DNA from: Exiguobacterium sp. s146 | Lineage (GTDB): Bacteria > Bacillota > Bacilli > Exiguobacteriales > Exiguobacteriaceae | Direction: 5' to 3' | Assembly: GCF_018618415.1 (NCBI RefSeq) | Contig: NZ_JACSMA010000002.1 | Span: 620,001-684,000, forward strand | DNA length: 64,000 nt | In this document: in pieces, positions 29,185 to 45,638 of the stretch | How positions within the stretch are numbered: the stretch's first letter is position 1 | Layout of the letters: every line of letters starts with the position of its first letter | Translations under genes and position numbers: made by a program | The notes under the pieces: generated by a model | What the model saw: the letters and a program-made list of their open reading frames with translations, nothing else | The model's database searches: none | Told to the model about the DNA's origin: nothing

Positions 29185-30228
29185 TCATTCAACGATTTCA
29201 GTTTTCTTTTTCTGACCGCATGACTGGCGAACGACCAAATAATGCGGGACGATGACGCGTTTGCCGTAAGGTGGCGCGCTATCTCCAATCTGTTCAATCA
29301 GACAGTTTGTCGCCTCGAAACCGAGGCCGAAGATGTTGATTTCGACCGACGTGAGCGGCGGATTCGAGTGCTCGGCGATATAGACGTTGTTGAAGCTGAC
29401 GACGGCGACGTCCTCAGGTATTTTAAGCCCCATCTCGCTGAGCGTGCTGATGACACCGAGCGCCATCATATCATCACTGACGACGACCGCGGTCGGCGGT
29501 TCTTCTAATTGGAGCAACTCCCGCACGGCTTTGGCGCCTCCCTTGGTCATGAACTCGGCACGGGCGATATAGTCTTCCCGAACCGGGATGCCCGCTTCCA
29601 TCAACGCTGTCGCGTACCCGTTGCGACGATCTTGTGTGACGGCGAGTTTATCTGATCCCCCGATGAAGGCGATGCAGCGATGGCCGAGATTATATAGATG
29701 TTTCGTTACTTCGCGCCCTGCCAAATAGTTGTCCGTGTCGACATACGTGATCGACGAGGCATCGCCGAACGGTTTCCCGACGACGACGAACGGGAATTTC
29801 GTCTGGCGTAAATATTGGACGACTTTGTCATCTTCACGCGAGTACAAGACGATGACACCGTCGACGCGACGGCCTTGGACCATCTCGATGACACCCGACA
29901 ACACCTCTTCTTCGGTCACGCCCGTCGTCATGTAGAGCGAATAACCGTTTTGATGGGCTTTCGTGCTGATCCCACGCATTACTTCAGGAAAAAATGGATT
30001 TTGTAGCGTCTTCGTCGCTGCGCTCGGCATGACGAGCCCGATCGACTGCGTCGAGCGGTTGGCGAGGCTTCGCGCGTGAATGTTCGGATGGTACCCGAGT
30101 TCTTCCATCGAACTGCGTACACGCTCTTTTGTTTTCTGACTGATACGCGGACTGTTGGCGATGACGCGAGACACGGTCGACGGTGCGACATTGGCGTGTT
30201 TGGCGACATCTTTAATCGTGATTTGCAT
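29185..30228 (-). CDS. LacI-family transcriptional regulator of maltodextrin genes (MalR-like)
   Basis: A 347-residue LacI-family repressor. The helix-turn-helix is TIKDVAKHANVAPSTVSRVI (about 3-22), with the hinge helix HARSLANRSTQSIGLVMP near 50-67. A periplasmic-binding-protein-like effector domain fills the rest, with the C-terminal REGxxP-like ends. The start at 30228 has AAGGGGGAGCATC before it. It is the last gene of the malE-malF-malG-amylase unit, so it is likely to control that unit. The LacI-type sites near 26509-26593, 34038 and 35469-35674 are its probable targets. The effector is probably maltose or a maltodextrin. Confidence 0.9.
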   Translation of the reverse strand: MQITIKDVAKHANVAPSTVSRVIANSPRISQKTKERVRSSMEELGYHPNIHARSLANRSTQSIGLVMPSAATKTLQNPFFPEVMRGISTKAHQNGYSLYMTTGVTEEEVLSGVIEMVQGRRVDGVIVLYSREDDKVVQYLRQTKFPFVVVGKPFGDASSITYVDTDNYLAGREVTKHLYNLGHRCIAFIGGSDKLAVTQDRRNGYATALMEAGIPVREDYIARAEFMTKGGAKAVRELLQLEEPPTAVVVSDDMMALGVISTLSEMGLKIPEDVAVVSFNNVYIAEHSNPPLTSVEINIFGLGFEATNCLIEQIGDSAPPYGKRVIVPHYLVVRQSCGQKKKTEIVE

Positions 30229-43742: not shown

Positions 43743-45209
43743 ATGAAACATATCGCCATTATCGGCGCCGGGCTCGGCGGCTTGAGTGCCGCCGTCACCT
43801 TGGCGGCCCGCGGTTACGACGTGACCGTCATTGAAAAGAATGAACATGTCGGCGGGAAGCTCATGCCGATCATCACCGACGGACACCGCTTCGACTTCGG
43901 ACCGAATACGATCACGATGCCGGACGTGTTCCGTTCCGTCATCCGCAACAGCGGTGCCAACCCAGATGACTATTTCGAGCTCGTCAAACTCGAGTCACAC
44001 ACGGTCAACCATTTCTCGGACGGTTCGACCTTCACATTCGATTCGGACCGCGAAAAAATGGAAGCCGAGGTGCGCCGTCTGACCGGCGACAAGGCCGATA
44101 AAAACCAATTGGCCGCTTACTTAGACAAGGCGGAGAAACTGTTCGAGATTGCCAACAACCGCTTCTTCACACGGATGGACTCGAAAATCGACACCGGTCT
44201 TTGGGCCGACATGATGAAAGTACATCCGCTCAAGAGCCTGCATGCGCTCCATAAGAAGTACTTCAAGGACCCGCGCATCATCCAAGCGCTCGACCGGTAT
44301 GCCACGTATATCGGCAGCAGCCCATACGTCACACCGGGCACGTTCGCGCTCATCTCGCATCTCGAGCTGAATGATGGTGTCTATTTCGCCAAGGACGGGA
44401 ACTGGACGATTGCGAAAGGGTTCGCGAAACGGGCGAGCGAGCTCGGCGTCGAGTTCCGGCTCGGCCATGAGGTCACGAAAATCGAAGTGACGAACGGCAA
44501 GGCCCATGCGGTCGTCATCGACCATGAAGAGGTCGTGTCGTGCGACGCCGTCCTGTTGAACGGGGAATTGCTCACTCAATATCCACGTCTCGTCGACGCA
44601 ACGGACCGTCCTTCGTTCCCGGTGCCGACACGCGACACGATTGAACCGTCCGTGTCCGCTTTCGTCATCATGGTCGGCTTGAACAAACGATTGAACCTCG
44701 CCCATCACAACGTCTATTTCTCAGACGACTACGAGGCCGAATTCCGAGCCTTGTTCGAAGAGGAACGCTACGCCGACGAGCCGACGATTTATATCTCGAA
44801 CTCGGCCCATACCGATCCGTCCATGGGGGAAGCTGGCGATAACTTATTCATCCTTGTCAACGCGCCGGCCCATATGACCGATATCGATGCCGAGACGTAC
44901 GAGCATTTGATTCGTCGACGGCTCCGTACGTTCGGTGTCGATTGGGAAGACAGTGACGTCCTGTTCCACCGTCGCGTCACTCCGCTCGACTTGACCCGTG
45001 ATTTTTACGCCTACTACGGTGCTCTCTACGGCACATCAGCCAATTCGAAAAAAGGTGCGTTCTTCCGACCGTCGGCCCGCTCCGAAGACGTCTCGAACAT
45101 CTGGTTCGCAGGCGGTTCGACGCATCCTGGCGGCGGCAGCCCGATGGTGACGCTTTCAGGACAATTCGCGGCCCGGTCAATGTTAGAGGACATACCTCTG
45201 ACAATTTGA
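43743..45209 (+). CDS. CrtN-family carotenoid desaturase/oxidase (CrtNb/CrtP-like)
   Basis: A 488-residue FAD-dependent phytoene-desaturase-family protein. The dinucleotide fold is HIAIIGAGLGGLSAAVTLA (about 3-21) and GGKLMPIITDGHRFDFGP (about 37-54), and the C-terminal FAD motif is NIWFAGGSTHPGGGSPMV (about 452-469). Its position in the operon with an acyl- and a glycosyltransferase suits the oxidase that forms a terminal aldehyde or acid on a C30 carotenoid, rather than the desaturase. That assignment is by context. A TAGGAGGCATAAC ribosome site precedes the ATG. A 430 bp gap with an apparent small RNA follows. Confidence 0.88.
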   Translation: MKHIAIIGAGLGGLSAAVTLAARGYDVTVIEKNEHVGGKLMPIITDGHRFDFGPNTITMPDVFRSVIRNSGANPDDYFELVKLESHTVNHFSDGSTFTFDSDREKMEAEVRRLTGDKADKNQLAAYLDKAEKLFEIANNRFFTRMDSKIDTGLWADMMKVHPLKSLHALHKKYFKDPRIIQALDRYATYIGSSPYVTPGTFALISHLELNDGVYFAKDGNWTIAKGFAKRASELGVEFRLGHEVTKIEVTNGKAHAVVIDHEEVVSCDAVLLNGELLTQYPRLVDATDRPSFPVPTRDTIEPSVSAFVIMVGLNKRLNLAHHNVYFSDDYEAEFRALFEEERYADEPTIYISNSAHTDPSMGEAGDNLFILVNAPAHMTDIDAETYEHLIRRRLRTFGVDWEDSDVLFHRRVTPLDLTRDFYAYYGALYGTSANSKKGAFFRPSARSEDVSNIWFAGGSTHPGGGSPMVTLSGQFAARSMLEDIPLTI

Positions 45210-45236
45210 ACATTTTGTGAACAGAGGATTCGACAC

Positions 45237-45265
45237 TTGTCGACACGGGACAGACATGATAATAT
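45237..45265 (+). promoter_or_regulatory. Promoter of the C-rich-loop small RNA
   Basis: TTGTCG (45237-45242) and TAATAT (45260-45265) are exactly 17 nt apart, 28 nt after the upstream stop codon. Transcription should start near 45272. Confidence 0.72.
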
Positions 45266-45271
45266 CATAAT

Positions 45272-45599
45272 CGAGTTCAAGCAGTTTCGTAACGTTGGTT
45301 ACACCTGTAGCGATCGAATGGCTTCCCCGAGCCTATCGCGTTTTGAACTTGTCACACCCGAGAAAAAAAGTGATGAGCGAGTTTCCCCACTCGTATCCCG
45401 CAGCTGGAACAGCATGCATCTGATGTTCCCCCTTAGTCCATCAAGCATCCTGCTTCAGCGAAGATGCCCCATCGTTTCATTCCCCATGAGACGAGGCACA
45501 TCTTTAGGGTTTCATCACGTCCGATTCGTTCGTTTCCCCGATGAACGAATCACATAACGCTTACACCACTTTTGGTCCCCCGCCAAAAGTGGTTTTTTT
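45272..45599 (+). ncRNA. Apparent structured small RNA of about 330 nt with repeated UCCCC hairpin loops
   Basis: The segment has a promoter, no convincing coding frame, a chain of hairpins and a terminator. Stems and loops seen: GGCT (45320-45323)/AGCC inside GCGAT/ATCGC, loop TCCCCG; CGAGT (45378-45382)/ACTCG, loop TTCCCC; TGATG (45421-45425)/CATCA, loop with TTCCCCC; TCGTTTCAT (45472-45480)/ATGAGACGA, loop TCCCC; GATTCGTTC (45523-45531)/GAACGAATC, loop with TTTCCCC; and the terminator stem, loop TCCCCCG. An outer stem AGTTCAA/TTGAACT (45274-45280/45343-45349) closes the first part. I do not recognise it as 6S, SRP, RNase P, tmRNA or a known riboswitch. The loops suggest pairing with Shine-Dalgarno sequences. 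Confidence 0.72.
45565..45599 (+). terminator. Terminator of the small RNA, with a UCCCCC loop
   Basis: CCACTTTTGG (45566-45575) pairs perfectly with CCAAAAGTGG (45583-45592) around TCCCCCG, followed by seven T. Confidence 0.95.
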
Positions 45600-45603
45600 G
45601 TGC

Positions 45604-45638
45604 ACAAAAAAGGCAGCCGTCTCGAGACGGCTGCCTTT
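45604..45638 (-). terminator. Terminator of crtM, a perfect 30-bp palindrome
   Basis: AAAGGCAGCCGTCTC (45609-45623) is followed by its exact reverse complement (45624-45638). On the minus strand it continues into a run of T. Confidence 0.9.

Follow-up and report, generated by a model that had tools for sequence, protein, structure and literature searches.

Between the two carotenoid operons of Exiguobacterium sp. s146 lies a stretch of about 330 nt for which a preliminary description, drawn from the letters of a 64,000-nt stretch of DNA (hereafter the window), had proposed a structured small RNA with C-rich loops on six or more hairpins. This raises the question of whether an RNA gene is really present at this locus, from which strand it would be read, and with what its loops might pair. 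In this study, we find an RNA gene whose structure and loops are conserved and whose third loop is complementary to the Shine-Dalgarno (SD) sites of sucC and sucD. Our preferred reading, to which we assign a probability of roughly 0.6, is that of a trans-acting small RNA that would block SD sequences, be regulated together with RoxS, and repress oxidative metabolism.

RESULTS

The features of the locus are collected in Table 1. With its upstream repeat, the plus-strand stretch runs from 45207 to 45599 and is flanked by genes for crtI-family proteins on one side and for a phytoene-synthase-like (crtB-like) protein on the other. The promoter named in the preliminary description is present, and both of its hexamers and their spacing are conserved across homologues around a spacer of variable sequence. 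The terminator is as perfect as had been claimed, with a stem of 12 pairs (45565 to 45593) followed by a T run. We took the T run as the 3' end of the RNA and inferred the 5' end from the promoter together with the conserved CGAGUUCAAG.

Table 1. Features of the small RNA locus (window coordinates)
Feature	Position	Strand	C run	Remarks
Upstream box, direct repeat TGAACA-N5-TGAACA (11-bp spacing)	45207-45223	+		Putative ResD-like response-regulator site
Promoter, TTGTCG-17-TAATAT	45237-45265	+		Sigma-A-type; read from the sequence
Small RNA	45272-45599	+		About 328 nt; z -8.2 against dinucleotide shuffles; 38/38 genomes
5' multibranch domain closed by GAGUUCAA/UUGAACUU	45272-45351	+		From the fold; found in the sister genus too
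Hairpin 1, GGCUUCCCCGAGCC	45320-45333	+	45325-45328	Sister-genus form GACUUCCCCGAGUC
Hairpin 2, CGAGUUUCCCCACUCG	45378-45393	+	45385-45388	Sister-genus stem entirely different, loop ACCCA or CCCCA
Hairpin 3, GAUGUUCCCCCUUAGUCCAUC, with invariant GUUCCCCCUUAG	45422-45442	+	45428-45432	12-mer identical in 38/38; complements UAAGGGGGA SDs
Hairpin 4, CGUUUCAUUCCCCAUGAGACG	45473-45493	+	45482-45485	Two-sided changes at 3 pairs; sister-genus stem replaced
Hairpin 5, GAUUCGUUCGUUUCCCCGAUGAACGAAUC	45523-45551	+	45536-45539	Two-sided changes at 2 pairs; sister-genus stem replaced
Hairpin 6, intrinsic terminator, UCCCCC loop	45565-45599	+	45577-45581	UCCCC loop invariant; sister-genus stem replaced

The RNA folds with a minimum free energy of -113.1 kcal/mol. 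It contains seven runs of at least four C (shuffle mean, 2.6), six of which fall in hairpin loops (mean, 0.37), and none of 300 shuffles reached these counts. Five of the six are hairpin loops that are unpaired throughout, while the third caps an irregular stem and has a single C-G pair drawn inside. The six C runs had been placed correctly to within one base, with one further CCCC (45467 to 45470) overlooked; this seventh run is half paired, lies in an internal loop, and is absent from some relatives. Together with its conservation (see below), we regard it as nearly certain that the locus specifies a real structured small RNA.

Two other uses of the same DNA were considered. The minus strand folds well too (z -4.1) and would display GGGGA loops, so that the transcript might be a CsrB/RsmZ-like sponge for CsrA read from that strand. 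It is the plus strand, however, that carries the promoter and terminator, and the crtB-like gene has a minus-strand terminator of its own at 45606 to 45635, as read from the sequence. Furthermore, at the pairs that vary among the 19 closest homologues, G-U is used by 18 on the plus strand and would be used by 2 on the minus strand. RNAs of the CsrB/RsmZ type carry GGA loops on the transcribed strand, and here GGGGA loops occur on the minus strand only. A minus-strand CsrA sponge was rejected on the grounds of promoter, terminator, and G-U bias, and we give it hardly any credence. The same holds for the idea that the locus encodes one or more small proteins: mechanically delimited open frames of 26 to 106 codons do exist, but none is conserved among homologues, close relatives differ by indels, and the 106-codon frame begins within the -35 box. 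A protein-coding gene was rejected because the reading frames are not conserved, in agreement with the earlier opinion that the segment holds no convincing gene.

Each of the 38 Exiguobacteriaceae genomes analyzed, 19 from the GTDB genus of the window (own genus) and 19 from its sister GTDB genus, has a single homologue at the same position. The own-genus copies are 87 to 98% identical to their relatives, and at the far end of the genus the 87% DNA identity of the RNA exceeds the protein identity of the crtB-like neighbor (76%). The sister genus carries a diverged version 3' of the crtB-like gene in 19/19 genomes, which was recognized by reading, the DNA search having initially been negative. 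A pattern common to both forms, scanned through 84,980 species, returned 24 loci, all named Exiguobacterium (E. sibiricum, E. antarcticum, E. undae, E. aurantiacum, and E. profundum among them); since the scan took exact matches only, diverged relatives outside the genus are possible. Neither a DNA search nor a covariance model found a paralogue in the own genome. The RNA family is old within Exiguobacterium.

Alignment of the homologous intergenic regions revealed two-sided stem changes around invariant UCCCC loops. Within the own genus, nine pairs have changed on both sides, versus 4.4 in shuffles (0/500 as high), and 99.5% of alignment cells remain paired. Comparison of the two genera shows rewritten stems in hairpins 2 to 6 and partial alteration of hairpin 1, while the loops of hairpins 1 to 6 were retained as UUCCCCGA, CCCA or CCCCA, GUUCCCCCUUAG, UCCCC, UCCCC, and UCCCC(C), respectively. 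The most conserved unpaired stretch is that of hairpin 3. Most stems change and the loops stay, which bears out the original argument that selection acts on the loop.

A repeated, conserved loop on stems that vary is also the layout of a protein sponge, and the RNA might be a platform that titrates a protein binding C-rich loops, as CsrB titrates CsrA, with mRNA pairing being secondary. The 12 conserved nucleotides of hairpin 3, however, exceed what a repeated protein site would need and match SD sequences. We know of no bacterial protein with specificity for C-rich loops, which we count against this possibility as well, and we consider it distinctly unlikely.

Pairing with SD sequences fits these data better in our estimation, as GUUCCCCCUUAG complements UAAGGGGGA SD sites and its entire complement, CUAAGGGGGAAC, holds a strong SD. 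In a sample of 350 genes from 464 kb of the own genome, with a simple choice of start codon, the SD region contained GGGG in 80 cases and GGAGG in 118. The AGGGGGA ribosome sites that the preliminary description had suggested as partners are therefore real and common, and the amylase and LacI genes that it listed fit; the most conserved candidates, however, are different ones, namely the sucCD, proline, fatty-acid, and electron transfer flavoprotein (ETF) genes. A UCCCC loop fits about one-fifth of all SDs, so that a loop match alone leaves specificity unaccounted for. All in all, the complementarity makes it likely that the UCCCC loops pair with SDs. Of the two roles once proposed, a multitarget regulator or a sponge, the former is supported insofar as the regulator is directed at SDs, and the latter found no support at all.

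The own genome holds 17 instances of TAAGGGGGAA ahead of a start codon, versus 3 of the reversed pattern; among the 17, a single site with two start codons was counted twice, and another instance is the minus strand of the RNA gene. Fifteen genes with a frame of at least 60 codons follow such a site, and seven of them function in oxidative catabolism: sucC, sucD, a 2-oxoacid dehydrogenase E2 gene (odhB, a name that rests on its N terminus), fadE, etfB, and the genes for proline and P5C dehydrogenases. Among annotated control genes with TAAGGAGGAA, one of 20 did so (an E1 dehydrogenase component; Fisher P = 0.006), an enrichment that is a lead and not a test, since the categories were picked after the list was seen. 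These annotations cover the exact 10-mer class. The same search in one sister-genus genome returned etfA, thiolase, another E2, a Leu-type dehydrogenase, cytochrome oxidase subunit I, a c-type cytochrome, and catalase, along with unrelated genes. AGGGGGA precedes the proline dehydrogenase gene in 29/29 readable genomes. Conservation between the genera extends to GGAGG-type SDs, for which three ortholog pairs have the exact 10-mer in common, so that a conserved GGGGG SD does not by itself imply targeting.

In all 30 genomes read, from both genera, UAAGGGGGA precedes sucC as well as sucD. The own-genus sucC leader, GGACUAAGGGGGAA, is a perfect 14-nt complement of hairpin 3 with a duplex energy of -28.4 kcal/mol, exceeded by one of the 350 sampled leaders. 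With the leaders of E. sibiricum, representing the sister genus, sucD reaches -23.2 kcal/mol (top 1%); the duplexes of sucC and proline dehydrogenase are not among the strongest. RoxS of Bacillus subtilis targets sucCD directly (PMC4409812). We somewhat favor the view, based on complementarity, that sucCD is a real target of the RNA.

The leader with the single stronger duplex belongs to a LacI-type gene at position 30228 (minus strand) of the window; AAGCAAGGGGGAGCAUCAUG gives -28.6 kcal/mol. It was also noted that the sucC leader (45 nt upstream, loci L263 to L292) carries tandem G runs, AAAGGGGAC-UAAGGGGGA in the own genus and AAAGGGG-UUAAGGGGGA in the sister genus, so that two UCCCC loops could engage at once.

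The constant location between crtI-family and crtB-like genes in the homologues might be taken to mean that the RNA, while pairing with SDs, has its effect locally or on a different set of genes, such as the neighboring ones for carotenoid synthesis, or that it is the 3' end of a crtI-family mRNA. The crt leaders, however, are without a strong UAAGGGGGA: the upstream gene has AGGAGG, and GGGG occurs only in crtB (AUGGGGGCA). Moreover, the RNA has its own promoter, and in one genome (G002) an IS30-like transposase gene (L004, ~1840 to 2890) has inserted directly 3' of the terminator, before the crtB-like gene, parting the two and leaving the RNA intact. We consider such local roles rather unlikely.

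The upstream box overlaps the crtI-family stop codon and, counted from the inferred 5' end of the RNA, spans roughly -65 to -49. Its motif, TGAACnTTnTGTGA, starts 30 nt before the -35 hexamer in 37/38 homologues, within TTTGAACATTTTGTGAAC in the own genus and TGTGAACGTTATGTGAA in the sister genus, and no further occurrence was found in the 464 kb sampled of the own genome or in 400 kb of a sister-genus genome. The same box stands upstream of the promoter of a RoxS homologue (CGTGAACATTATGTGAC), where the motif starts 31 nt before -35 in 18 of the 19 own-genus genomes. A search for RsaE/RoxS gave weak matches of 36 to 39 bits (cutoff, 79) in four Exiguobacterium genomes, and homology was judged by eye from CAAACCCCUUUAUUGACCGUAAACUUUCUCCCAUC against CAAACAUUACCCCUUUGUUUGACCGUGAAAAAUUUCUCCCAUC of a genome above the cutoff. 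The homologue is present in 19/19 own-genus genomes, with extra UCCCC sequences downstream. Because the same box is found at nearly equal spacing, joint induction of the two RNAs is probable, and on balance we incline to the view that they answer to the same regulator. In B. subtilis, ResD activates roxS via a conserved site near -65 (PMC4409812), and by analogy the shared regulator is probably a redox regulator of the ResD type. The RoxS promoters of other Bacilli in our set carry TTTTGTGAC, GTTTGTGAC, or similar sequences; no open-access publication was found that spells out the consensus sequence for ResD.

In the own genome, the RoxS homologue is located outside the window at C2:423603-423800 (L338; L323 to L341 across the 19 genomes) and starts with a Rex-like palindrome, GTGAAATCAATCAC. 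Examples of its extra UCCCC sequences are CUUGUCCCCGCUUGAG and, in the terminator, GGCUCCCCGGCC. It is apparently unlisted in Rfam for Exiguobacterium.

DISCUSSION

No Rfam family reached its gathering score in the window, and RF01820 (RoxS/RsaE) was absent among window matches with E values up to 10. The only noteworthy subthreshold match, EF3314_EF3315 (28.5 bits; cutoff, 100), covers two unrelated terminator hairpins and was rejected. The RNA was therefore rightly called undescribed, and we consider it a family of its own that resembles RoxS and RNAIII in its presumed working and belongs to neither. For the genus itself, an RNA-seq study of E. antarcticum B7 set noncoding reads aside (PMC4247613), and a genomics study gave small RNA predictions in bulk only (PMC10837837).

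Like RoxS/RsaE, the RNA has C-rich motifs able to pair with SDs, here six unpaired C runs; sucCD, a target of RoxS, is a candidate here, and the upstream box may correspond to the ResD site near -65 of roxS (PMC4409812). In contrast, RoxS is ~110 nt long, the RNA described here is ~328 nt long with another architecture and sequence, and the own-genus genomes possess a separate RoxS homologue. RNAIII of Staphylococcus aureus is likewise a long RNA with several C-rich hairpin loops, which bind the SDs of many mRNAs (PMC2837412). It is, however, longer, encodes delta-haemolysin, and lies beside agrBDCA, whereas the present RNA has no conserved frame, carotenoid neighbors, and no Rfam match. The LhrC1-5 RNAs of Listeria monocytogenes offer redundant UCCC sites in a loop, a linker, and the terminator loop, and their induction by a two-component system involves a responsive element at about -53 to -75, a position comparable to that of the candidate box (PMC4132741). 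LhrC differs in comprising five short copies with three sites each, as opposed to a single long copy with six loops that has no match in Rfam. FsrA of B. subtilis, ~84 nt long and Fur controlled, represses TCA and respiratory enzymes and thereby spares iron; its size and control set it apart from the present RNA, which again has no Rfam match. Both are C-rich, and FsrA has been named as an SD-directed RNA (PMC4132741), which the present one probably is as well.

We envisage that the RNA would act in trans by blocking translation initiation, with six hairpins exposing UCCCC loops to G-rich SDs. The loop of hairpin 3 would serve as the main docking site, forming 9 to 14 nt of pairing with UAAGGGGGA SDs, and the remaining loops may add contacts or engage other mRNAs. 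The regulon would probably comprise sucCD, the 2-oxoglutarate dehydrogenase E2 gene, and the genes for proline and P5C dehydrogenases, acyl-CoA dehydrogenase, and electron transfer flavoprotein. A ResD-type redox regulator would induce the RNA alongside RoxS, and mRNAs of the TCA cycle and other oxidative catabolism would then be translated less. Judging from the candidate sites, energy-metabolism genes are probably switched off in this way upon a change in oxygen or redox state.

More tentatively, and with considerable reservation, we suggest that the RNA is a genus-wide multivalent SD blocker and a partner of RoxS, its six loops engaging several oxidative-metabolism mRNAs, or several G-rich sites of one, and that the SDs of the genome fall into a controlled GGGGA class and an escaping GGAGG class. 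To our knowledge, no other small RNA has as many SD-directed loops, and few trans-acting small RNAs have been described in Firmicutes other than Bacillus, Listeria, and Staphylococcus. If the proposed mechanism is true, the RNA ties central metabolism to redox sensing and RoxS in an environmental genus that is widespread. It would also offer a natural system in which to examine loop valency and to ask whether the type of SD, GGGGG versus GGAGG, decides which genes a small RNA can control.

A minor observation concerns the terminator. Its T run is confined to one side in the own genus; the sister-genus form (loci L057 to L074) is flanked by A and T runs on both sides, so that it may stop transcription both ways and serve the convergent crtB-like operon too.
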